A stretch of 12,923 bases of DNA from contig JACPQZ010000019.1 in assembly GCA_016190205.1 (NCBI GenBank), positions 1 through 12,923 on the forward strand, read 5' to 3'. Below, one piece after another: positions 1,476-12,923 of this stretch. The notes below the pieces were generated by a model. The model saw only the letters and a program-made list of their open reading frames with translations, made no database searches and was not told where the DNA came from. Numbering within the stretch: position 1 is the first letter of the stretch; each line of letters begins with the position of its first letter. The stretch is from Candidatus Omnitrophota bacterium. Its GTDB lineage: Bacteria; Omnitrophota; JACPQZ01. The position numbers were made by a program, and so were the translations under genes.

Positions 1476-1500
1476 ATCGTTTCCTGGAGAGCAGCGTTAG

Positions 1501-1563
1501 TCGTGTGTGTTGAGTGGTGAGTGATGAGCCTGTGTCTCACCACACATCACACTCCACTCACGA
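1501..1563. repeat. Heptad-built imperfect hairpin between tonB-like gene and exbB
   Basis: The left arm reads TGAGTGG TGAGTGA TGAGCCT (1511-1531). The right arm reads CTCACCA CACATCA, then CACTCCA CTCACGA (1536-1563). Both arms are in 7-nt steps. They pair with each other: 1511-1517 with 1554-1560 (7 bp perfect) and 1521-1526 with 1545-1550 (6 bp perfect). The loop is too large and there is no U-tract, so it is not a standard terminator. It sits inside the probable operon, where it could alter expression of exbB-exbD relative to the upstream genes. Confidence 0.75.
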
Positions 1564-1597
1564 CAGGCGCAGTTTCTTAACCGGGATATGCAACATG

Positions 1598-2488
1598 CTA
1601 ATAATAATAGAAGGTAAAGAGGATGTCGAGCGTCTCTTCCCCATCAACGGTCTCAAAGCCCTCCGGCAGGGCGGCGAAGGGAGCGGCCTGCGAGATGGCA
1701 GCCAGTCCCAGGATCTTCAAGTACTCATCCCCGCGGTGCTCTAAGGCCTTGAGGTCGGAGATATGGCCATCGGGATGGACCTTAAAAGATACGACAGTCT
1801 TGCTGCTTGCGGCGAGGCGATTGTACTTAAATTCAACCAGGGGATACCACTCCTGCCAGATGCGCTTCTTGAGCTCACGGATGTAGGGCCCCAGATCATG
1901 CTCACGCGCGTCAAACGACCGTTCGCCCAATGCGCGGGCCCCGGCCTCACGGCGGGATACGGCCCTTTGGGCCATCTCCCCCTGTGGACCCGCTTCCTGC
2001 TGGGGTAAGGCGATCACTTCTGGCGTAGAAAACTGCTCCGGCATTTGGGTACTCATGGCCACACGGGCCAGGCTCACTGCCTCGGATTTTACTTCGGGTT
2101 CCTCTTGAAAAATCTGCCCAGCCTCACCGGCTTGCCCAGGCGGGGTGACCGGATTCGCCGGCAGATCCTCTTTACCGCCCCCAGACCCCGGTAACTCCGG
2201 GAGACTGCGCCAGTCTTCGTCCTCATAAGGCTCCTGGCTGGGCTCGTCCACCCGGCCCTCACCCTCTTCCTTATCGCTTGCCCTCTGGTTTTTGTCCGAT
2301 ATGAGATCCGTGGGTTTAAGAGGCGTTTGTTCTTCACCCGGCGATTCTATAAACTCAAATTCAAGCGCCGGCTCCGGCCGAGGGGGCGCGACCACAAAGG
2401 AACGCGCGAGACCCAGCTCCAGCGTAGAGACAAAGGCTACGTGTGCGAATAAGGAGGCGAGCATGGCAAGCCGAAGCGAGGGTTTCAT
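1598..2488 (-). CDS. TonB-family energy transducer
   Basis: Likely the periplasm-spanning partner of the ExbB-ExbD motor encoded just downstream. A short basic start is followed by one membrane helix at about 8-26. A long, low-complexity linker (about 30-195) is rich in Glu, Asp, Pro and Gly. The C-terminal domain (about 200-296) is TonB/TolA-like: YIRELKKRIWQEWYP at 202-216, then a VVSFKVHPDGHISDLKALE strand region, AAPFAALP at 268-275, and a final aromatic run FTFYYY. The linker is notably acidic rather than the Pro-Lys/Pro-Glu rod of classical TonB. The ATG overlaps the mdh stop by ATGA (2485-2488), implying coupling with mdh. TolA-like function is the alternative; the family call is firm, the exact partner in the outer membrane is unknown. 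Confidence 0.82.
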   Translation of the reverse strand: MKPSLRLAMLASLFAHVAFVSTLELGLARSFVVAPPRPEPALEFEFIESPGEEQTPLKPTDLISDKNQRASDKEEGEGRVDEPSQEPYEDEDWRSLPELPGSGGGKEDLPANPVTPPGQAGEAGQIFQEEPEVKSEAVSLARVAMSTQMPEQFSTPEVIALPQQEAGPQGEMAQRAVSRREAGARALGERSFDAREHDLGPYIRELKKRIWQEWYPLVEFKYNRLAASSKTVVSFKVHPDGHISDLKALEHRGDEYLKILGLAAISQAAPFAALPEGFETVDGEETLDILFTFYYY

Positions 2489-3411
2489 TTAAGCTGGAGC
2501 ATCCCCTTTCGAACAGACTCCGCAGATTTGTGCAGGGCCGCGAGCTCTTCCTGGGTGAGGTCCAGCTCCACAATGCGCTCGACCCCTTCGCGCCCGAGGA
2601 TGACCGGGACTCCGCAAAAGACATCCTTAAGACCATACTCCCCGTTCACCCGGACACAGCACGGGAGAAGCTGTTTTTCATCCTTGAGGATACTCTCCAC
2701 CATAATCGCAACCGAAGCGGCGGGCGCATAAAACGCGCTCCCTTGCTTGAGGAGCTTGACGACCTCCGCCCCGCCGTCACGGGTACGCTCTATCAAGGGC
2801 GCGATCTCTTTGGGGGAAAGGAACGAGTGGATGGGGATGCCGGAGACCGTCGCAAAGCGCTCGAGGGGCACCATGAGATCGCCGTGCCCCCCCAGAACCA
2901 TCGCGCTTACCTCTTTCACCGAAACACCCAGCTTCTGCGCAATAAAAAAGCGGAAGCGCGCGGAATCCAGGACGCCCGCCATCCCCATCACCCGTCGGTC
3001 ATCCCGGCTCGTCTCACGCCAAACGATGCTGGTCATGATATCGAGCGGATTGGAGACGACGATGACGATTGACCGGGGCGCGACCTGCTTGATTTTTTGG
3101 GCGACGCCTCGTACAATCTGGTTGTTCTTGGCTGCAAGGTCTTCGCGGCTCATCCCTGGAGTCCTCGCAAGGCCTGCCGTGATGACCACGATGTCACACC
3201 CCTCCATCCGCGCAAAATCATTGGATCCCTCCACACGTACATCAGCCCCCTCCAGCGGGGTCGATTGCGAAAGGTCCAAGGCCTTTCCCTGCGGCATTCC
3301 TTCAATGATGTCTATCATGACGCAGTCGGCAAGGCCCTTCTGAACGATGAGCTGGGCGGTCGTCGCGCCCACGTTCCCAGATCCAATGACCGCGACTTTA
3401 CGGCGAGACAT
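2485..3411 (-). CDS. mdh: Malate dehydrogenase, LDH-like type
   Basis: Interconverts malate and oxaloacetate with NAD in the TCA cycle. The 308 residues match the lactate-dehydrogenase-like MDH group. The nucleotide site GSGNVG is at 10-15. Asp34 ends the second strand (MID), which favours NAD over NADP. The mobile loop ARTPGMSR gives Arg83 and Arg89; an Arg at the first of these, in place of Gln, marks malate rather than lactate specificity. Asn121, Asp149, Arg152 and the catalytic His176 (in MVLGGHGD) are all in place. The gene lies 2 nt after icd and overlaps the TonB-like gene by 4 nt. An AGG 5 nt before the ATG serves as ribosome site. Confidence 0.96.
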   Translation of the reverse strand: MSRRKVAVIGSGNVGATTAQLIVQKGLADCVMIDIIEGMPQGKALDLSQSTPLEGADVRVEGSNDFARMEGCDIVVITAGLARTPGMSREDLAAKNNQIVRGVAQKIKQVAPRSIVIVVSNPLDIMTSIVWRETSRDDRRVMGMAGVLDSARFRFFIAQKLGVSVKEVSAMVLGGHGDLMVPLERFATVSGIPIHSFLSPKEIAPLIERTRDGGAEVVKLLKQGSAFYAPAASVAIMVESILKDEKQLLPCCVRVNGEYGLKDVFCGVPVILGREGVERIVELDLTQEELAALHKSAESVRKGMLQLK

Positions 3412-3413
3412 AA

Positions 3414-4517
3414 CTACCTGGCCCTTCTGACGGGCTGTCTCATGCGCCGCACGATGGCTTCCCCCATCTCACGGGTCCCCACGGCCGTTGGGTCGTTCCG
3501 GTCCGCCTTCATGTCATAGGTCACATCCTTGCCTTCCCGGATAACATCCGCGACCGCGCGCTCAAGCCGGTCCGCCGCCTCTTTTTCCCCGATATGCCGC
3601 AGCATCAAGACCCCCGAGAGGATGAGGGCCGTGGGATTTACCTTATTGAGACCCTTATACTTGGGGGCGCTGCCGTGGGTGGCCTCAAAAAGGGCCACAC
3701 CCCCCGCGCCTATATTGGCACCCGGCGCCACGCCAAGCCCCCCCACGAGTCCCGCGCACAGATCGGACAAGATATCTCCATACAAATTGGGAAGCACCAG
3801 GACGTCATAGAGCTCCGGCTTCTGTACGAGCTGCATGCACATGTTATCTACTATCCGGTCTTCGAACTCGATATCCGTATAACCCCTGGCCACTTGGCGG
3901 GCGACTTCCAGAAAGAGTCCGTCCGTATATTTCATGATGTTGGCCTTATGCACGGCCGTCACCTTCTTGCGCTTGTATTCGCGCGCATAATCAAACGCAA
4001 AACGCACGATCCGTTCTGTCCCCGTCACGGAAATAGGCTTGATGCTTATCCCCGAATCGCGCCGGATCACTGAACCCGAGAGCTTCTTGATCTCATCCAA
4101 GAGACTCAAGGTTTCCTTCTTCCCCTTCTCAAATTCAATACCCGCGTAGAGATCCTCGGTATTCTCCCTAACGATCACAAGATCAATGTTCTCATATCTC
4201 GACCGGACACCTTCGTACGACTTGCAGGGCCTCAAACAGGCGTAGAGATCGAGCTCTTTTCTTAAAGCCACGTTCACGCTTCGAAAGCCAGTGCCCACGG
4301 GAGTGGTGATGGGGGCCTTGATGGCCACCTTATTCCGGCGGACGGACTCAACCACTTCTTTGGGAAGCGGTGTCCCTTTCTCTTCCATAATGTCCACGCC
4401 TGCGTCCTGTATCTCCCAGTCGATAGAAACCCCGGTGGCATCCAGACATTCTCGCGTAGTCTCTGCCAGGCTTGGACCCGTGCCGTCACCTCGTATCAAA
4501 GTTATCTTGTAAGACAT
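3414..4517 (-). CDS. icd: Isocitrate dehydrogenase (isocitrate/isopropylmalate dehydrogenase family)
   Basis: Oxidative decarboxylation of isocitrate to 2-oxoglutarate. Ser80, Asn82, Arg86 and Arg96 in the [16 protein letters not shown] region form the isocitrate-binding pattern; isopropylmalate dehydrogenases lack this Ser-x-Asn. Arg117, Tyr124 (VRENTEDLY), Lys191 (HKANIMK), Asp224, Asp248 and Asp252 complete the catalytic and metal site. The cofactor loop reads [13 protein letters not shown], with Lys286, Tyr287 and Val293 in the places used by NADP enzymes such as E. coli Icd; Tyr334 also fits, but the position of E. coli Arg395 is Ala338. The 367-residue length is that of the shorter, NAD-IDH/IPMDH-like enzymes. 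A strong AAGGAGG is 14 nt before the ATG, longer than usual, but the N-terminus is canonical. Homoisocitrate dehydrogenase is a less likely alternative. Confidence 0.9.
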
Positions 4518-4546
4518 GTTGGTTTACGTTCCCTCCTTTGTTTCGG

Positions 4547-5068
4547 TTACGAACGGTTAGTAACTGATTCCAAATTGAGTAACTTTTTTTTCCACCGCCG
4601 GCCGGCCGAGTACCCGCCCAGCCCGCCGTCACCCCGGACGACACGGTGGCACGGAATCACCAGGGGAAGAGGGTTGCGGCTCAACGCGGAACCCACGGCG
4701 CGGGCCGCCCCCCGATATCCCGCGCGGCGCGCCAGCTCCCCGTAACTTATGACACGTCCATACGGGACGCGGGCCAGGGTCTTGAGGATCTTGCGGTCGA
4801 AGCGGCCTAACCCGCTCCAATCGATCGGACACCGGAACAACACCCGCTGGCCTTCAAAGTATCTCCTCAAATCATGTTCGAACCGCCGACGGGATGGTTG
4901 AGCAGGCTGGGATCCCGGAAAGCTTTTCCGAATACGGGCCACCGCGCTTTTCTCCGTACCCCGGGGCAAAAAGAGAGAGGCGAGCCGACTCCCATATTGA
5001 ACAAGACCCGCACAGCCGAAGCGCGTTTGAACGAGTCGATAGTAAACTTTATTCAGCGCCTTGTTCAT
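4547..5068 (-). CDS. ogt: Methylated-DNA--protein-cysteine methyltransferase
   Basis: Repairs O6-alkylguanine by moving the alkyl group irreversibly to its own cysteine. The 173 residues have a divergent N-terminal domain (about 1-85) and the conserved DNA-binding domain (about 88-165). In the latter, VPYGRVISYGELARRAG (101-117) is the helix-turn-helix region with Tyr109, Arg123 matches the arginine finger (AARAVG), Asn132 precedes the active-site motif, and Cys140 is the acceptor in IPCHRVV. GGYSAG (151-156) is the usual substrate-pocket loop. The chosen ATG lies inside the end of the upstream coiled-coil gene (20-nt overlap). The gene is 29 nt upstream of icd. No regulatory Ada-type N-terminal zinc domain is present, so it is the stand-alone Ogt/AGT type. 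Confidence 0.95.
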   Translation of the reverse strand: MNKALNKVYYRLVQTRFGCAGLVQYGSRLASLFLPRGTEKSAVARIRKSFPGSQPAQPSRRRFEHDLRRYFEGQRVLFRCPIDWSGLGRFDRKILKTLARVPYGRVISYGELARRAGYRGAARAVGSALSRNPLPLVIPCHRVVRGDGGLGGYSAGRRWKKKLLNLESVTNRS

Positions 5069-5411
5069 CCAGACCCGAACGGGTATCCCGCGGCGGAGAC
5101 TTTTTTCTGAATAGCTCCTCCAGCATCACGATCTGCCGGTCTTCTTCGGTTTCCTTCTCGATGCGCTTCAAGAGCTTCTTGAGCTGCTTGCTCGTCATAC
5201 CCAAATGTTCCACACAAATGTAGGTGAGGACGCGGGTGTTGATGTTGATCTGCACCTCCGCATCCTGCATACGCTCCATTAATTCCGTCACCTTTTCCCA
5301 GAGCTTGTCCCGGTGCTTTTTCTGATAGTCCAATTCGGACTTTAAAATCTCAAGCTGGCCCTCTATCTCCTTCAGCCGCTCCGCGGGCTCGCTGGCCGCC
5401 TTTGCCTTCAT
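5049..5411 (-). CDS. Small coiled-coil protein of unknown function
   Basis: I do not recognise a family. The 120-residue product is highly charged and has no signal peptide or membrane helix. Residues about 8-52 read as a long amphipathic coiled coil (ERLKEIEGQLEILKSELDYQ onward). A short hydrophobic patch, NTRVLTYICVEHLGMT, follows at about 58-73. A second charged helix (KQLKKLLKRIEKETEEDRQ, about 76-94) comes next, and the tail is Lys/Arg-rich and polar. It begins 3 nt after ald and overlaps the ogt start by 20 nt, so it is clearly part of the operon. Its helix-patch-helix build would suit an oligomerising or scaffold protein; that is only inference. Confidence 0.8.
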   Translation of the reverse strand: MKAKAASEPAERLKEIEGQLEILKSELDYQKKHRDKLWEKVTELMERMQDAEVQININTRVLTYICVEHLGMTSKQLKKLLKRIEKETEEDRQIVMLEELFRKKSPPRDTRSGLDEQGAE

Positions 5412-5414
5412 CTC

Positions 5415-6536
5415 TTATGCCCCCTTAAGAGCCGCCTCAATGGGAACAGCCCGGGTCTTCACGATCTCCGCCAGGGCCGGATAGGTCACCCGGCCGCCCG
5501 CCGCGTTGATCCCCATGGCAATGGGGCGGTGATTGACGGCGGCCTCCTTGATCCCCTCTTCCGCAATGCGCCGCACGTAGGGAAACGTGGCGTTCGTAAG
5601 CGCATAGGTAGATGTCCCCGCCACCGCGCCGGGCATGTTCGTTACGCCATAGTACACGACCCCGTTCAGACAAAAGGTCGGGTGACCGTGGGTGGTAGGG
5701 CGGGATCCTTCCGTGCACCCCCCCTGATCGATGGCGACATCCACGACCACGCTCCCTTTTCTCATTTTTTTAAGCATCCTGTGCGTGACAAGTATGGGGG
5801 CCCGCGCCCCGTGCCGGAGCGCGGCTCCAATGACAAGGTCCGCTTGAGCCACCGCCGATTCCACCGCCAGCCAATCGCTCATTTCGGTAGAGACGTTCGC
5901 GGGCATGACGTCGGCTAGATACCGAAGCCGGTCGAGGTTGATGTCCATAATGACCACCCGCGCTCCGAGGCCGGCCGCCACGCGGGCGGCGTTCGAGCCC
6001 ACCACCCCTCCCCCCAGCACCACGACCCGCGCGGGGCTCACGCCCGGCACTCCCCCCAGCAAAATCCCCCTGCCCTCCATGGGGCGCTCCAGGCACTTGG
6101 CTCCCTCCTGCACCGCCATACGGCCTGCTACCTCGCTCATGGGCGTGAGGAGCGGGAGACGCCCTTCAAAATCCTCCACAGTTTCATAGGCGATCGAAGT
6201 AACCTTGAGCTTGAGCATGGCCTTGAGCAAGGGGGGATTAGCCGCGAAGTGGAAAAAACAGAAGACGCCCTGCCCCGAGCGCAAATAACGCCATTGGGAC
6301 TCGGGGGGCTCCTTCACCCTGGCGACCAGCTCGGCCCGCCGATAGACATCGGCCGCCCTTTGGACTATCTCTCCCCCCACGCGGGTGTACGCGCCGTCCG
6401 GGATGTTACTGCCGAGCCCCGCCCCTTTTTCGATCAGCACGCGGTGGCCGTCCTCGACCAACTGCTTGACCCCGGCCGGAACAAGACCCACCCGGTACTC
6501 GTATTCCATAATTTCCTTAGGTACGCCGATCACCAT
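5415..6536 (-). CDS. ald: Alanine dehydrogenase
   Basis: NAD-dependent interconversion of L-alanine with pyruvate and ammonia. The 373 residues are full length. The substrate and catalytic residues of the family are all in their usual places: Arg15 (YRVG), Lys75 (VKEP), His96 (FHFAAN) and Asp270 (VDVAIDQGG). The nucleotide-binding glycine motif GGGVVG is at 175-180, and NMPGAV at 300-305 is typical. The motif normally read as PRTST is AGTST here, a modest deviation. It is the first gene of the ald-to-tonB run and has an extended -10 promoter-like site 79-87 nt upstream. The ribosome site is ambiguous: GGAGG lies 13 nt before the ATG, or AGGA suits the adjacent GTG (codon 2). Confidence 0.96.
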   Translation of the reverse strand: MVIGVPKEIMEYEYRVGLVPAGVKQLVEDGHRVLIEKGAGLGSNIPDGAYTRVGGEIVQRAADVYRRAELVARVKEPPESQWRYLRSGQGVFCFFHFAANPPLLKAMLKLKVTSIAYETVEDFEGRLPLLTPMSEVAGRMAVQEGAKCLERPMEGRGILLGGVPGVSPARVVVLGGGVVGSNAARVAAGLGARVVIMDINLDRLRYLADVMPANVSTEMSDWLAVESAVAQADLVIGAALRHGARAPILVTHRMLKKMRKGSVVVDVAIDQGGCTEGSRPTTHGHPTFCLNGVVYYGVTNMPGAVAGTSTYALTNATFPYVRRIAEEGIKEAAVNHRPIAMGINAAGGRVTYPALAEIVKTRAVPIEAALKGA

Positions 6537-6557
6537 GTCCTAGCGAGCCCTCCACGT

Positions 6558-6585
6558 GCATCGTGCATCGTGCTTCGTGCTTCGT
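6558..6585. repeat. Heptad array GCATCGT/GCTTCGT, left arm of inverted pair
   Basis: Four tandem 7-bp units: GCATCGT twice, then GCTTCGT twice. Together with the array at 6698-6725 it forms an inverted repeat: 6573-6585 is perfectly complementary to 6702-6714, and the match continues with only two mismatches to 6561/6726. The array lies in the leader of ald, between the promoter-like site and the start codon. Confidence 0.85.
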
Positions 6586-6614
6586 AAAAAATCAAAAAAC
6601 CCGCCCTTATATAA

Positions 6615-6623
6615 ATTATACCA
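6615..6623 (-). promoter_or_regulatory. Extended -10 promoter-like site for the ald operon
   Basis: On the minus strand the site reads TGGTATAAT, a consensus -10 hexamer with the TGN extension. It is the best promoter match in the gap before ald. No good -35 hexamer is seen at 16-18 nt upstream, which an extended -10 can tolerate. Transcription would start near 6608 and produce a leader of about 70 nt carrying two T-runs and the GCTTCGT-type heptads. Confidence 0.5.
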
Positions 6624-6650
6624 TTCACAACACAACTCCCTACGACCCAT

Positions 6651-6694
6651 GCGTCGCGAAAGGGCCGGCAGCAAAGCCAAATGATTTGCGACGC
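6651..6694. repeat. Short inverted repeat GCGTCGC/GCGACGC
   Basis: Perfect 7-bp arms at 6651-6657 and 6688-6694, between the two heptad arrays. An alternative inner pairing GCAAA/TTTGC (6671-6675/6685-6689) is also possible. It lies just upstream of the promoter-like site and could be an operator or part of a larger fold. No regulator is assigned. Confidence 0.5.
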
Positions 6695-6697
6695 GCG

Positions 6698-6725
6698 AAG
6701 CACGAAGCACGAAGAACGAAGCACG
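6698..6725. repeat. Heptad array AAGCACG, right arm of inverted pair
   Basis: Four tandem 7-bp units: AAGCACG, AAGCACG, AAGAACG, AAGCACG. This is the reverse complement of the GCTTCGT-type array at 6558-6585. It begins 18 nt beyond the stop of the TMTC/TPR gene, so the pair could form a long stem enclosing about 115 nt. Confidence 0.85.
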
Positions 6726-6743
6726 ACAGAAGCTTTTTTCCAG

Positions 6744-8480
6744 TCACTGGAGCTGGGAAAGGCGCTTCTCAATCTCGGCACGATCCGGGTCCTTGCGCAG
6801 GGCCTCGCCCCACGCCAGGCGCGCCTTTTCGCGGTTTCCCATGGCAAGGTAAACATCTCCCAAAAAACGGTGCGCATACTGCTGGTAGGGATTGGCCCGT
6901 ATCGCCTTTTCGTAAAAGCCCGCAGACTGGTCCAACCGGTTCGTCACCTGGTTTAACCTGCCCAGGTTAAAAAGGGGGGATGAAAAATCCGGTTTGACCT
7001 CGATGGCTTTTAAATAGGCCCACTCGGCGCGCTTAAGATCGCCCTTGCCCATACAGAGATTGCCCAAATTGTTGAACGCGATAAAACTCGTGGGATCCAG
7101 CTGAGCCGCCTTTTCACTGAAGGTGATCCCCTCGTCCCAGCGCCTTTCCTTCTCGCAGATCCAGGCTACATTGTTATAGGGCTTCACGTGCAGGGGGTTG
7201 AGCTCAATGGATCTCCGAAACTCCGCCTCTGCTTCCCTAAACTGGTTTTTACGCGCATACGCCGTCCCGAGATCATTTCGAAAGTAATATTCCATATTCT
7301 TGCTGGTTCGGATGGCCTGGCTGTAAAGTAACCTCTCGTCCCCCCACATAGCGCTGTACTTGAGCGTAGAGACCGCCAAAAGCACCATCATGACGGCGGC
7401 TGCCCCGGCCTCCGCAGTGCGAAGCCGGCCCCGCGTCTTAGTCCAGAGCCGTGCCGATAAGGCTGCCACAGAAAGGCAGAGCCCAACGGAAGGGAGATAG
7501 AGGTAGCGATCGGCATGGATACTGGCCGCCACGAAAGGCCAGTTGAGCATGGGCGATAATGTGACGGCCGTCCACAAGATCCCCATCGCCTCCCACTGTT
7601 TCTTTCTGGCCATCCATATAGACCCAGCCAGCACTGCCGCAAAAAAGAAGGCCGGCAGGAGATTGGCAGGCCACGCGCCGCTGAAATCGTGCTGGATGGA
7701 TAAATCAAACCAGGGCCAAAAGAAAGAGCAAAAGTAGCGCCACAAGACGCTCGGCAGAACAACCAACGGATAATTGTGATCGAAAGGCACTGCCCCTTGG
7801 CTGGCCGTTTCCGAGATGCGGTTAGCAATCAGGCCGCGAATGTGAAACAGCCACAGCGCCGCCCCCACGCAGTGCGGCATCACCCGCCGGACCGCAACCC
7901 GGATGGGAACGCCTTTAAACCAAACGAGCGCCGCGAACAAAACAACAGGAAGCGTGACAGCCACCGGCTTGGCCATAAGCGCCAAGAGATAACACACGAC
8001 GGAGACAATGGCTTGTCCGTCCATCATGCCCTTGGACCGGACGCCGGCGTTCAAAGACAAAAGGAAGAGCAGTGTGTACAGGAGCTCCGGATACCCGGAA
8101 ATCCAGGCGACGGGCTCGGCATGCACAGGATGCACGGCAAACAAGAGGGCCGTCCCGAAAGAGATGAACCGCGATCCCGTCAAGACGGCAAAGAGCACAT
8201 AGACCACGGCCGTCACGCCTGCATGCAGAAGCACATTGGTGAAATGATAACCGCGGGCGTTATCGCCCCAGGCAGTGTAATTTAAGCTCTGCCAGACGGC
8301 GCTGAAGGGGTAGGGCGTATGACCTGTAAAAAAGTCCGGGATGTTGGAGATATATTTGCCTTTTGAGTCAAGGGTCACCAGCCAGTCGTCCCAGACAAAA
8401 CCGTTTTTAAAACTCGATGCATAGAGTCCCACCGAGATCAAAACCGGAATCAGGACCGGCCACCAGCGTTTTTGCGTCAT
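6744..8480 (-). CDS. TMTC-like polytopic membrane protein with C-terminal TPRs
   Basis: Resembles the TMTC/DUF1736 group of GT-C-type membrane proteins, which in eukaryotes are O-mannosyltransferases. Of the 578 residues, about 1-375 form a multi-pass membrane domain. Family-like motifs are FVWDDWLVTLD with an acidic pair at 31-32, PYPFSAVWQSLNY (57-69), FAVHPVHAEPVAWISGYPEL (114-133) and HADRYLYLPSVG (322-333). The C-terminus holds five consecutive 34-residue TPRs at 398-431, 432-465, 466-499, 500-533 and 534-567. I chose the ATG at 8480, in an ATGA overlap with the methyltransferase stop and preceded by AAGGA, over an in-frame ATG 48 nt earlier that lies inside that gene. A role in protein or glycan mannosylation is plausible but not shown. 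Confidence 0.85.
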   Translation of the reverse strand: MTQKRWWPVLIPVLISVGLYASSFKNGFVWDDWLVTLDSKGKYISNIPDFFTGHTPYPFSAVWQSLNYTAWGDNARGYHFTNVLLHAGVTAVVYVLFAVLTGSRFISFGTALLFAVHPVHAEPVAWISGYPELLYTLLFLLSLNAGVRSKGMMDGQAIVSVVCYLLALMAKPVAVTLPVVLFAALVWFKGVPIRVAVRRVMPHCVGAALWLFHIRGLIANRISETASQGAVPFDHNYPLVVLPSVLWRYFCSFFWPWFDLSIQHDFSGAWPANLLPAFFFAAVLAGSIWMARKKQWEAMGILWTAVTLSPMLNWPFVAASIHADRYLYLPSVGLCLSVAALSARLWTKTRGRLRTAEAGAAAVMMVLLAVSTLKYSAMWGDERLLYSQAIRTSKNMEYYFRNDLGTAYARKNQFREAEAEFRRSIELNPLHVKPYNNVAWICEKERRWDEGITFSEKAAQLDPTSFIAFNNLGNLCMGKGDLKRAEWAYLKAIEVKPDFSSPLFNLGRLNQVTNRLDQSAGFYEKAIRANPYQQYAHRFLGDVYLAMGNREKARLAWGEALRKDPDRAEIEKRLSQLQ

Positions 8481-9091
8481 TTTTTCCTTGCCTGGATGAC
8501 AAACTGAAACGCAAAGAGTTCCGGCCACAAGCGCCCGAGCAGCTTGATTCTTAAATTGCGGGGCGCGACCGAATCAATACCGTAGCCCGAGTATTCAATC
8601 ATATCCCGCATTTGCCCCAGTGTAAAGTAATGAAGATGGCCCCAGTGTGTTAGGGGATGCTCGTAGTCCCATATCCCGGCAAGAAGGTTGAGACGGATCT
8701 GCCAGTTCGCTACATTGGGAAGGGAACACAAGAGACGCCCGCCTTCCTTCAATAAACCGCGGTAAGACTTAAGAAGAGAGGCGGGATCCAGCATGTGTTC
8801 CAGGATATCACTGAAAATGATGCAGTCAAAACTTCCATTGGGCATGCGACCCGAGTTAAGATCCAGCTCGTAAACATCGTCCAGAAAATTCTTGGCCCTG
8901 CGCGCGAGTTCGTGGTCCCCTTCGACCCCCACGACCTTGCACTCCTTCTCTTGTTTCAATGTTTGCCCAAGCTTCCCCGATGAGCAGCCGACGTCCAGCA
9001 CACTGGACCCGCGAGGGACGCGTTCAATAATCATCTCATTCGGCGGCGGCTCGTCGTAATCAAAGGTCTTGGGGGGGAATTTCATTGTCAT
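8477..9091 (-). CDS. Class I SAM-dependent methyltransferase
   Basis: The 204-residue product has a Rossmann methyltransferase core. Motif I is VLDVGCSSGK (31-40). Glu57 in VGVEGD should bind the ribose of SAM. FDCIIFSDILEHMLDP (88-103) is the usual motif II/III region, followed by LKEGGRLLCSLPNVANW (114-130). The run LNLLAGIWDYEHPLTHWGHL (134-153) then HYFT resembles methyltransferases found in glycan and lipid gene clusters. The substrate is unknown. A GGAG ribosome site 8 nt before the ATG overlaps the vanZ stop. The stop overlaps the start of the TMTC/TPR gene, so the two may act in the same pathway, for example methylating a sugar or lipid. Confidence 0.88.
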   Translation of the reverse strand: MTMKFPPKTFDYDEPPPNEMIIERVPRGSSVLDVGCSSGKLGQTLKQEKECKVVGVEGDHELARRAKNFLDDVYELDLNSGRMPNGSFDCIIFSDILEHMLDPASLLKSYRGLLKEGGRLLCSLPNVANWQIRLNLLAGIWDYEHPLTHWGHLHYFTLGQMRDMIEYSGYGIDSVAPRNLRIKLLGRLWPELFAFQFVIQARKK

Positions 9092-9096
9092 GGCAC

Positions 9097-9477
9097 TTAC
9101 TCCCTTTTCCTTCCAAACGGTAAACCCACCCCCCCGATGAGCGCCCCTAGCGCATTCGCAACAGCATCCCAGGTTTCGGCTGAGCGGTAAGGAAGCATCG
9201 CCTGCAGACCTTCCATTCCTAAACCATAGAGCGCGGCAGCAACTGCCGAGAGGGCTCCTGCGGCGCTCGGGGAATGCTTCAAGTGCGCATTTTGCTTCAT
9301 GGCGCGATGGATGAGAAAAGCGAAAACGGCGTAAAGCACGAAGTGGGCAAGCTTATCAAATCCCAAGGGGGGGCCTGGGACAACGTCGGGCGTAGGGATG
9401 AGAGAGACTATCAAAAGAAAAACCCCCATCCCGACTACTGTCCGCGACGGCGGGATCCGGCCGAGTGCGCGCAACAA
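9097..9477 (-). CDS. VanZ-like membrane protein
   Basis: The 126-residue protein has four likely membrane helices (about 15-27, 41-58, 74-90, 105-120). It carries the family motifs DKLAHFVLYAVFAF (41-54) and GMEGLQAMLPYRSAETWDAVANALGALIGG (read here as 87-116), equivalent to the E-Q...R...D..N..G pattern of VanZ-like proteins. VanZ itself gives low-level teicoplanin resistance, but most family members have unknown envelope roles. The start is TTG one nucleotide after the dnaJ stop; a second TTG follows at once and gives better spacing to GGGAAAG. An ATG at residue 17 would cut into the first helix and is less likely. Confidence 0.85.
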   Translation of the reverse strand: MLRALGRIPPSRTVVGMGVFLLIVSLIPTPDVVPGPPLGFDKLAHFVLYAVFAFLIHRAMKQNAHLKHSPSAAGALSAVAAALYGLGMEGLQAMLPYRSAETWDAVANALGALIGGVGLPFGRKRE

Positions 9478-9478
9478 G

Positions 9479-10552
9479 CTACTTTCCCTTTGCCAGCATT
9501 TTATCGAACTGCTCCAAAAGCGACCGCTCTTCTCTCGTCAGGTGGGTGGGTACCTCCACCACAACACGCACAAGTTCGTCTCCCCTCCCCGAGCCGGCCA
9601 GCCTGGGGATGCCCCGCCCCTTTAACCGAAAGACCTTGCCCGGCTGTGTCCCGGGGGGAACATGCATGCGCACCTCTCCATCCAAGGTAGGCACTTTGAC
9701 TTCATCTCCCAGCACAGTCTGCGCAAACCGGATGCGGACTTCGCACAAGACGTCATCCCCTTCCCGGGAAAAAACCTCGTGATGACGAACCGCGACAGCC
9801 ACATAGAGATCCCCTCGAGGGCCTCCATTGAAGCCCGCCTCCCCCTCGCCCGTGATGCGTAATTGTGATCCCGTCTGAACACCTGCCGGGACCTTGACCT
9901 CAATCTTGCGTTCGCCTCGCTGCCGGCCCCGGCCTCGGCACGCCCTGCAGGGCTCTTTGATTATTTCACCCTCACCCTGGCAACGCGGGCACGTCCGTGC
10001 GAGGCTGAAGAAGCCCTGCGACATGCGCACTTGGCCCTCACCCCGGCACTCCGGACACTCGGTCTTGCCTACGCCCGGACGGGAACCGGAACCCCCGCAT
10101 TCCGCGCAAGTCTCCTCTCGCGTGAGGGATAGCGGCACCCTTTTTCCGAACGCGGCTTCTTCAAAGTTAAGTTCGAGGTGATACTCGAGGTCGCTCCCGC
10201 GCCGGGTCCGCCGCCCGCGGGTTGCGGCGCGCCCTCCGCCAAAAATGCCGCCAAAGAGATCGCCGAAGATATCCTCAAACCCGGCAAAAGAAGAGCTGTC
10301 GAATCCGCCGAAGCCTGACCCGGCACCCACGCCGGCATGCCCGAACTCGTCATAAGCTGACCGCTTCTTGGGATTGACCAGGCAGTCGTAGGCCTCGGTG
10401 GCCTCTTTAAATTTCTCCTCGGCTTCTTTGTTTCCAGGGTTCCGGTCAGGATGATACTTTAAGGCGAGTTTCCTGTAGGCCTTCTTGATCTCGGTCTCGT
10501 TCGCGCCCCGCGATACGCCCAGGACATCGTAGTAATCGCGTTTGGTAGCCAC
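9479..10552 (-). CDS. dnaJ: Chaperone protein DnaJ
   Basis: Type I Hsp40 co-chaperone that delivers substrates to DnaK and stimulates its ATPase. The 357 residues include the J domain (about 5-70) with HPD at 35-37, a Gly/Phe-rich linker (about 72-108), and four zinc-binding repeats at 149-156 (CAECGGSG), 166-173 (CPECRGEG), 188-195 (CPRCQGEG) and 202-209 (CRACRGRG). C-terminal substrate-binding domains follow. The start is GTG; the N-terminus [10 protein letters not shown] is canonical so the position is secure. I see no Shine-Dalgarno: the leader is CTCAAAATTAA directly next to the heptad repeats. It is separated from dnaK by a 282-nt repeat-filled spacer, which is unusual for this pair. 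Confidence 0.97.
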
Positions 10553-10563
10553 TTAATTTTGAG

Positions 10564-10615
10564 AAACCAGAAACCAGAAACCAGTTACCAGAAAATAACA
10601 GAAACCAGATACCAG
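10564..10615. repeat. Heptad array AAACCAG-type, outer left arm of dnaK-dnaJ spacer
   Basis: Units are AAACCAG three times (10564-10584), TTACCAG (10585-10591), an irregular 10-nt unit, AAACCAG (10602-10608) and ATACCAG (10609-10615). It is the inverse of the CTGGTNN array at 10793-10837. Together they would form the base of a hairpin spanning the whole spacer. Confidence 0.9.
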
Positions 10616-10626
10616 AAGTGAAAATC

Positions 10627-10679
10627 CGAATGTCGAAATTCGAAGCACGAACAAATTCGAATGACCGAAATCCGAGTCA
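10627..10679. repeat. Heptad array CGAANNN, inner left arm
   Basis: Successive units are CGAATGT, CGAAATT, CGAAGCA and CGAACAA, then after 3 nt CGAATGA, and after 1 nt CGAAATC and CGAGTCA. The first four letters are held while the last three vary. It is partly complementary to the TTCG-containing units on the right side of the spacer. Confidence 0.8.
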
Positions 10680-10699
10680 CTAAACGCCGGTTTTTGAAT

Positions 10700-10792
10700 T
10701 TCCGATTTCGCATTTCGATATTGTTCGGATTTTCCGCCCGAGGCGGATCCGCCGCGCTTTGTGGCAGACGATATTCGAATTTCGGATTTCAT
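10700..10792. repeat. Inner right arm: TTCNNAT heptads, GC hairpin, TTCGGA heptads
   Basis: Units TTCCGAT, TTCGCAT and TTCGATA are at 10700-10720. A GC-rich hairpin follows at 10733-10747 (TCCGCC-CGA-GGCGGA), overlapping a perfect 12-bp palindrome GGCGGATCCGCC at 10742-10753. A second run, ATTCGAA, TTTCGGA, TTTCATC (10773-10793), continues in the same 7-nt phase straight into TGGTATC and TGGTCTC. No U-tract follows the hairpin on the minus strand, so it is not a clear terminator. Confidence 0.75.
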
Positions 10793-10837
10793 CTGGTATC
10801 TGGTCTCTTCTGGTTTCTGGCAACTGGTATCTGGTTA
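10793..10837. repeat. Heptad array CTGGTNN, outer right arm, reaching into dnaK stop
   Basis: Units are CTGGTAT (10793-10799), CTGGTCT (10800-10806), 3 nt, then CTGGTTT, CTGGCAA, CTGGTAT and CTGGTTA (10810-10837). The last unit includes the dnaK stop codon (10835-10837). It is the inverse of the AAACCAG-type array at 10564-10615. Confidence 0.88.
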
Positions 10838-12748
10838 CTTCTTTTCTTTGTCGTCTTCAGCAGTGTACTCCGCATCCACCACATTCTCGCGCTTCTCGTC
10901 CCCGGGCGCGCCGCCGGTCGAAGCATGCTGCCCAGCACCCTGCTTCGCGCCGGCCTCTTTGTATACCTCTTCGGCAAGTTTGTGGGAGGCGCGGGCAAGC
11001 TCCTCCGTTGTCTTCTTAAGCTCCTCCGCGTCGCTCGAATCAAGCTTGGACTTGGCCTGCTTCAAGGCCTCCTCTATTTTTTCCTTATCGGACTTCGACA
11101 CCTTGTCGCCGTAGTCCTTAAGAGACTTCTCGACCGAGTAGATCATGGTATCGAGCTGGTTATGCGCCTCGACGCGCTCCCGCTTGCCTTTGTCCTCGGA
11201 GGCATGTTCCTCCGCCTCTTTGACCATCTTTTTAATGTCGTTTTCCGAAAGGCCGCTAGAGCTTTCGATGCGGATCTTCTGTTCTTTGCCCGTGGCCTTG
11301 TCTTTGGCGGAGACGTGCACGATCCCGTTTGCGTCGATATCAAAGGTCACCTCTATCTGGGGAATCCCGCGCGGGGCAGGAGGGATGCCCACGAGATCGA
11401 AACGACCCAGGGTGCGATTGTCTGACGCCATCTCGCGCTCCCCCTGCAGCACATGAATGGACACCGCCGTCTGGCTGTCCGCGGCGGTGGAGAAGATCTG
11501 GCTTTTTTTGGTGGGTATGGTGCTGTTTCGCTCGATGAGTTTCGTCATGACACCGCCCAGGGTCTCAATCCCCAGCGAAAGAGGCGTCACATCCAAAAGG
11601 AGCACGTCCTTCACCTCGCCCGACAGCACCGCGCCCTGAATGGCGGCCCCCACCGCCACGACCTCGTCCGGGTTTACCCCCTTGTGGGGCTCCTTCCCAA
11701 AGAATTTCTTGACCGTGGCCTGGACGGCCGGCATCCGCGTCTGACCGCCCACCAGGATCACCTCGTCAATCTGCTCGCTCTTAAGCCCCGCATCTTCCAG
11801 GGCCTTCCGGCATGGACCGACGGTGCGCTTGACGAGGTCCTCCGTCAGCTGTTCCAGCTTGGACCGCGTCATGGTCATGGTGAGGTGCTTGGGTCCCGAC
11901 GCATCCGCCGTGATAAAGGGGAGATTGATCTCCGTCTGGGCTACAGTGGAAAGCTCGCACTTCGCTTTTTCCGCAGCCTCTTTGAGGCGCTGGAGGGCCA
12001 TGCGGTCCTGGCGCAGATCGATGCCGTGCTCTTTTTTGAACTCCTCCGCGAGCCAGTCGATGACCTTCTGGTCGAAGTCGTCACCTCCCAGGTGTGTGTC
12101 CCCATTCGTCGACTTGACTTCAAACACGCCGTCTCCGATCTCCAGGATCGAGATGTCGAAGGTCCCTCCGCCCAGGTCGTATACCGCGATTTTTTCATCC
12201 TTTTTCTTGTCCAGCCCGTACGCGAGGGAGGCGGCCGTAGGCTCGTTGATGATGCGGAGCACATTGAGCCCCGCGATGCGGCCGGCGTCTTTCGTGGCCT
12301 GCCTCTGGCTGTCGTTAAAATACGCGGGCACGGTGACGACGGCGTCCTTGACTTCATGCCCCAGGTAGCTCTCCGCCGTTTCCTTCATCTTCTGCAGGAT
12401 GATGGCGCTGATCTCAGGCGGGGTCCAATCCTTGGCGCCCGCCTTGACCACGCAATTCCCCTTGGCGTCTTCCGTCACCTTGTACGGGACGAGCTTCTCT
12501 TCCTGCTGAACCTCCTCATGCCGGCGGCCCATAAAACGTTTGATCGAGAAGACGGTGTTCTCCGGATTCGTCACCGCCTGGCGCTTGGCCGCCTGACCCA
12601 CCAGACGGTCCCCGCTCTTGGCAAACCCCACCACGCTGGGGGTGGTGCGCGCCCCTTCAGAGTTGGCGATGACCACGGGGTCCTTCCCCTCCATGATCGC
12701 CACGCACGAGTTCGTGGTTCCTAAATCGATTCCGATTACCTTACCCAT
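10835..12748 (-). CDS. dnaK: Chaperone protein DnaK (Hsp70)
   Basis: ATP-driven chaperone of the cytoplasm that works with DnaJ and GrpE. The 637 residues are full length. The ATPase domain (about 1-380) shows [12 protein letters not shown] (6-17), [18 protein letters not shown] (144-161), [10 protein letters not shown] (191-200) with Thr196 at the autophosphorylation site, and [10 protein letters not shown] (331-340). The interdomain linker [13 protein letters not shown] is at 381-393. The substrate-binding domain and helical lid follow, with a Gly/Gln-rich stretch (600-616) and the tail NVVDAEY. A good ribosome site (AAGGAGAG) is 7 nt before the ATG. hrcA and grpE are not in the window; they may lie beyond the right edge. 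No CIRCE element is seen in the 175 nt available upstream. Confidence 0.98.
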
Positions 12749-12779
12749 GTAAGTCTCTCCTTCAGTTATGATGACGAGT

Positions 12780-12807
12780 TTCGTTCTTCGTGCTTCGTTC
12801 GTCGTTC
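12780..12807. repeat. Heptad array TTCGTTC-type in dnaK leader
   Basis: Four 7-bp units: TTCGTTC, TTCGTGC, TTCGTTC and GTCGTTC. It begins 32 nt upstream of the dnaK start and is related in sequence to the GCTTCGT array at 6558-6585. No complementary arm is seen before the window ends. Confidence 0.8.
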
Positions 12808-12810
12808 GTC

Positions 12811-12838
12811 GCTTCCCGCTTCCCGCTTCCCGCTTCCC
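12811..12838. repeat. Perfect tandem GCTTCCC x4
   Basis: Four identical copies of GCTTCCC in tandem. Exact identity suggests recent expansion. A polypurine run results on the minus (coding) strand: GGGAAGC repeats lie upstream of dnaK. Confidence 0.93.
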
Positions 12839-12849
12839 GATCCGCGCCC

Positions 12850-12891
12850 GTCGCTAGTCGCTGGTCGCTGGTCGCTGGTCGCTAGCCGCAG
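12850..12891. repeat. Tandem heptads GTCGCTR x5 plus GCCGCAG
   Basis: Units are GTCGCTA, GTCGCTG three times, GTCGCTA and the diverged GCCGCAG. They follow the GCTTCCC array after an 11-nt spacer. I see no convincing promoter between this array and dnaK, so the promoter may lie beyond the window edge. Confidence 0.92.
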
Positions 12892-12923
12892 GCTTCTCGC
12901 CAGATTTTGCGATCCCCGAACCC

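Follow-up and report, generated by a model that had tools for sequence, protein, structure and literature searches.

Which kind of process would build spacer after spacer of one bacterial contig on a unit of seven nucleotides while the words themselves change from site to site? The window analysed here, 12,923 nucleotides in length, is the entire contig C8 of a draft genome of 1.65 Mb in 76 contigs, with a GC content of 56.5% in the sampled part of the genome, and the closest named relative of its DnaJ, 58% identical, comes from a draft genome of Omnitrophota, the phylum to which the host probably belongs. Read from their translations alone, the genes of the window, all of them pointing leftward, would encode in order ExbD, ExbB, a TonB-like protein, malate dehydrogenase, isocitrate dehydrogenase, a methylguanine methyltransferase-like protein, alanine dehydrogenase, a TPR protein, a methyltransferase, a VanZ-like protein, DnaJ and DnaK. 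Gaps of more than 100 nt are found at 1-399, 1476-1597, 6537-6743, 10553-10834 and 12749-12923. The first-pass annotation had described the last four as made largely of tandem heptanucleotides, and this is borne out by the period-7 arrays that Tandem Repeats Finder (TRF) reports and by lag-7 identities of 0.41, 0.46, 0.49 and 0.61, respectively, with z scores of 3.6, 6.2, 8.5 and 8.2 against first-order Markov shuffles. All four gaps have an excess at a single common spacing, 7 nt with its multiples, and one of them has a further excess at lag 24. The gap at 1-399 has a lag-7 identity of 0.28 (z 0.3), and in the genes of the window z at lag 7 never exceeds 2.5.

The same period runs through the rest of the genome. 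Autocorrelation of the parent genome had been set beforehand as the test, and across 559 kb the spacers have peaks at lags 7, 14 and 21 only, while the genes have none. In this sample, for which gene calls and array detection were made by our own scripts and are approximate, intergenic arrays of period 7 number 101, compared with 0-1 for each of the other periods from 4 to 12. Exact tandem doublets in the spacers of 877 kb number 1076 for a unit of 7 nt, compared with 27, 15 and 3 for units of 6, 8 and 10 nt, and fall into 66 heptamer classes. A single unit length shared by many unrelated words is thus a genome-wide feature located in the spacers, and an excess of tandem heptamers between genes is also what defines the heptameric long simple sequence repeats (LSSR7). 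The main units are ACAGCGT, AAGCACG, ACGCAGT, AATCGTG and AAACCAG, all of them without GGG on either strand. That nearly every long gap would be filled in this way holds for the window but not for the genome, where z at lag 7 exceeds 3 in 34% of gaps of at least 80 bp (0-1% at lags 4-6 and 8-12) and where gaps of more than 400 bp carry little signal. The restriction to intergenic DNA likewise stands for most arrays and for the genes of the window, but 32 of 133 arrays lie inside predicted ORFs, some of them at ORF 3' ends. ORFs that hold arrays internally or at the 3' end include L034:10674-12626 and others at L042, L047, L050 and further loci, which would suit an entry of elements into genes or a displacement of stop codons by them.

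The first-pass annotation overlooked how these arrays are organised, namely their copy number, inverted pairing, nesting, fixed and variable positions and dispersed composites. In the spacers, chains of identical 4-mers at spacing 7 comprise three copies in 115 cases, four in 147, five in 27 and six in 5, compared with 3.3 triplets and nothing longer in shuffled spacers, and spacings of 6 and 8 stay at shuffle level. Chains are thus most often of four units, with a sharp drop beyond five, and array length has its mode at 30-31 nt. Within four-unit arrays the identity between units is 0.87, 0.85 and 0.86 at distances of 1, 2 and 3 units, even though detection favours neighbours. About five positions per unit are fixed and two are variable; the variable positions are few and set per word, as in CCAG-WW-A, where AA, AT, TA and TT are all common, or in CGTAC-W-G, where the variable position is T in 38 cases, A in 30 and G in 1. 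An inverted partner lies within 300 bp of 49% of 217 arrays, compared with 16% in control flanks taken from other arrays, and additional direct copies accompany 19% of arrays, compared with 15% in controls; many of these statistics count related arrays as independent. The inverted-repeat score exceeds all 20 shuffles in 60% of gaps with arrays and in 25% of gaps without them, and facing arrays can, according to predicted folds, form imperfect hairpins. Where inverted pairs of different families meet, 8 are nested, 1 is side by side and 1 is crossed, a count of ten pairs under a rough family definition.

Several of these arrangements can be seen within the window, where TRF places period-7 tracts at 1499-1528, 6555-6585, 6696-6726, 10562-10617, 10791-10835, 12781-12811, 12810-12839 and 12850-12883, most of them with 4.3-4.9 copies. 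The weakest case is the gap at 1476-1597 (TRF score 32), in which a weak inverted pair (1499..1565, 4.3 copies, DNA fold z -2.2), with TGAGTGN on the plus strand and its reverse complement at about 1535-1561, sits between the ExbB/TolQ-like and TonB-like genes. In the gap at 6537-6743, TRF and array detection both recover a left array of CGTGCWT (6555..6585, plus strand, 31 nt, 4.4 copies) and a right array of GAAGCAC/GAAGAAC (6688..6726, minus strand), which is its inverted partner over 30 aligned columns, and the DNA fold of the gap has a z of -4.9. The gap at 10553-10834 holds a CCAG element, with an outer left arm of AG-WW-ACCAG units (10562..10620, plus strand; TRF and array detection) and an outer right arm of CTGGTWW units that abuts the dnaK stop (10791..10834, minus strand; TRF and fold). 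Nested within these arms lie inner CGAA heptad arms with a core containing GGCGGATCCGCC (10626..10790), delimited by sequence, fold and alignment to locus L220, which the window element resembles over 303 bp at 82%. In the predicted fold of this gap inner arms pair with each other and so do outer arms (z -10.3). A core with GGCGGATCCGCC / CCCGAGGCGGATCCGCCG is common to several CCAG/CGAA elements, among them window 10626-10790, L220 and L031. Upstream of dnaK follow three plus-strand arrays reported by TRF, namely TCGTTCG (12781..12811, 4.4 copies), CGCTTCC (12810..12839, 4.3 perfect copies, with an identical 28-mer at 6 genome loci) and GTCGCTN (12850..12889, 4.9 copies). Only 34 nt of the contig follow the last of these, and any inverted partner would lie outside its 12,923 bases.

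Dispersal is clearest in the CCAG family, which comprises 34 gaps linked by alignments of at least 50 bp. Its arms begin with AG-WW-ACCAG, continue through four units and A(T)AGA and end with about three further units. L045 and L050 share, at 93% identity, a composite of about 255 bp in which a CGTG shell surrounds a CCAG hairpin; its two copies lie in inverted orientation between different, unrelated genes, and the similarity ends at the arms. L220 has the CGTG shell and CCAG arms of L045/L050 with another core, which it has in common with the window element at 10553-10834, so shells and cores combine. In addition, 28-mers with an identical order of variant units recur at 3-7 loci. The earlier suggestion that a mechanism rather than descent unites the repeats is therefore only partly right: one length across unrelated words speaks for it, but within word families the composite and the recurring 28-mers make descent and dispersal clear. 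Homology of whole elements is beyond doubt for the CCAG family only, and many other arrays are single. Of 88 facing CCAG units, 81 are mismatched at one position or more (about 75% expected), almost always by A-A or T-T. Fully paired units number 5 where 10.2 would be expected from swapped same-orientation arms (P 0.01, 14 elements), which, in a small sample, hints at an avoidance of perfect palindromes.

Starting from what is observed directly, namely the period of 7, the preference for four units, the facing and nested arrays, variation limited to certain positions and copies dispersed over several loci, the reading we prefer, while granting that it could equally turn out wrong, is that the spacers are populated by short, non-autonomous hairpin elements which have arms made of heptads and which disperse and come to lie nested. 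Each arm would consist of some four 7-nt units in a row, with five fixed and two variable positions, and a second, inverted array would complete the imperfect hairpin. Elements may sit concentrically, one within another, and blocks would spread into spacers, mostly between co-directional genes. Dispersal would probably proceed by transposition-like or template-directed copying rather than by recombination between arms, and the heptad would reflect a structural need of the copying process or of a hairpin-binding factor. Alternatively, recombination between CCAG arms could shuffle cores within the family. As in MITEs, the CCAG elements have terminal inverted repeats and begin with AG-WW-ACCAG at both ends; inspection of 24 elements by eye revealed no target-site duplication. 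A copying of one arm from the other within a hairpin is unsupported, as the arms of a CCAG element match each other worse than they match those of other elements in the family, a contrast that comes partly from mixed orientation and is smaller, though still present, after the elements are oriented. In the other families, own arms are less alike than comparable arms in 23 of 32 cases, a figure to which we give no weight as its control is biased by the score threshold.

Heptanucleotide simple-sequence repeats made and kept by polymerase slippage with a step of about 7 nt, the inverted pairs being secondary, would suit dozens of unrelated words that are alike only in length, as well as the few arrays that are perfect across 4-5 units. 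Heptamers are also cited as outnumbering all other long-unit repeats in many bacteria, with polymerase contact length proposed as the cause. We nevertheless consider this origin rather unlikely, and slippage as the chief generator, as first supposed, accounts poorly for the data: copy number has its maximum at four where a decay would be expected, the flat identity within four-unit arrays means that adjacent units are no more alike than distant ones, facing pairs are frequent and extra direct copies are not, and the same variant order recurs at many loci. A length distribution and a neighbour similarity of the slippage type are both lacking, and in G002, a genome from another family of the phylum, the commonest class of array has a step of 8 nt. 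An artefact of assembly or binning is far more remote still. The draft is fragmented, contigs C1 and C11 meet in one array and the window ends just past another, but imperfect, family-structured arrays lie in contig interiors and in separate genomes of other families, and the reversed pattern finds almost no matches in genomes that carry the forward one. The repeats are not lost in independent assemblies either, as those of relatives carry the same kind of arrays.

RNA or DNA hairpins under selection, or arrays for a heptad-reading protein, might act on transcript ends, stability or translation, as would suit the co-directional setting of 123 of 138 classified gaps (37% of co-directional gaps have a lag-7 z above 3), the median array start 11 nt past the stop codon, the strongly fixed positions with A/T-only degeneracy elsewhere and the mismatched facing units of the CCAG arms. 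Arms that are less complementary to each other than to exchanged arms of the same family are the opposite of what selection for pairing would produce, however, and G-U pairs, at 181 compared with 146 A-C in the sense orientation (P 0.06), form a weak trend without a clear excess. A search of Rfam gave no match, and the arrays in the window adjoin genes of unrelated functions. Such selection as the main explanation therefore seems unlikely, although a protein with 7-nt spacing, as the first-pass annotation had proposed, may take part.

Several known systems offer themselves for comparison. An excess of heptamers in bacterial spacers, as long simple sequence repeats, and a cause of the 7 nt in slippage or polymerase footprint have both been published (Mrazek 2007, as cited in PMC4679880 and PMC4692102). 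The present arrays resemble those repeats in the excess itself and differ from freely slipping tracts, so far as these citing papers describe them, in their narrow copy number, mirror pairs and blocks. Closer are the heptameric repeats GGGAATC / GGGGA(C/T)T of Xanthomonas and Nostoc, which have been attributed to quadruplexes; the GGGANTN repeats of Xanthomonas come in four units, with positions 1-4 and 6 conserved, and form facing pairs (Rehm et al. 2015, PMC4692102). Common to both systems are the 7-nt unit, two variable positions, the preference for four units, facing inverted pairs and an intergenic location mostly between aligned ORFs, whereas the present genome, from a different phylum, has dozens of word classes, nesting and dispersed 255-bp composites, and nearly all of its units are without a G-tract. 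A quadruplex cannot be the general reason for four units because the present units are mostly not G-rich. The TAACTGA direct repeats of Beggiatoaceae, Cyanobacteria and Bacteroidetes (MacGregor 2015, PMC4679880) are likewise intergenic heptamers, in 2-6 copies and occasionally with related units between them, but they consist of one word, lie toward start codons and include one inverted case in 170 sets, whereas here words are many and inverted pairs frequent. Taken together, the heptad arrays of this genome are real, genome-wide and known in kind, and they are new in variety and organisation.

Heptameric STRRs were reportedly described from filamentous cyanobacteria by Mazel in 1990, and small dispersed repeats (SDRs) from the same group, reportedly, by Elhai in 2008. 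The SDRs of cyanobacteria are reported to lie inside heptamer arrays and also to be nested in themselves. By description only, the present arrays are like both in forming heptameric spacer arrays and in nesting, in a host that is probably of a different phylum. REP/REPIN sequences with their RAYT (Y1) transposases are similar as small, dispersed, non-autonomous intergenic palindromes, but the arms here are heptads and no tagged REP core was seen. Four matches to Y1 (REP-type) transposases were found in this genome, among them L056:10230-10553 and L058:1303-1638. Two of the Y1 genes were examined and have no arrays within 2.8 kb, nor do any lie in six short loci around such genes, and a REP/RAYT interpretation was set aside. 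The Y1 gene of L056 is flanked by inverted GGTCAGGTCTTGCATTATCACA ends, which mark a separate small element family. A search with the PF00078 profile for a reverse transcriptase domain (retron, DGR or group II intron) found none in this genome.

Beyond this genome, the AAACCAG word occurs in scattered families of the phylum. Of 193 genomes, 10 contain GAAACCAGAAACCAG, and of 285, 16 contain ACCAGWW arrays of four units, with almost no matches to the reversed pattern in those genomes. The CCAG hairpins of genome G056 have a different make-up. In G002, the commonest class consists of 8-nt NTAAAYKG arrays in facing pairs (loci L250, L253, L256 and L188), in which positions 1, 6 and 7 vary freely and the others hardly at all, and 7-nt arrays are also present. 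A unit that is always 7 nt was thus correct for the window and its genome but fails in this genome of another family, and the clade is not physically bound to a step of 7. In a set of 80 loci drawn from many phyla, arrays of period 7 are occasional. Why heptamers dominate the long-unit repeats of bacteria has been a question since 2007, with polymerase slippage as one proposal and G-quadruplexes as another for the four-unit bias. Words that are not G-rich and yet keep four units, mirror pairing and two free positions exclude quadruplexes as the general cause and disfavour plain slippage. The genome offers a testable anatomy of arms, shells and cores, and the 8-nt genome a place to seek the factor that sets the step. 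Perhaps, as a speculation we hold doubtful, these are a new class of non-autonomous bacterial element with hairpin arms of four heptads, made by a putative machinery that works along DNA or RNA seven nucleotides at a time (eight in the genome of the other family), whose nesting spread would explain the old excess of heptamers in bacteria.

The gap at 1-399 of the window holds a dispersed repeat of another kind, about 300-500 bp long and not heptameric, which is 80-92% identical to spacers in L034, L054, L219 (two), L220, L222, L024 and L046, and several of its copies lie at contig ends.
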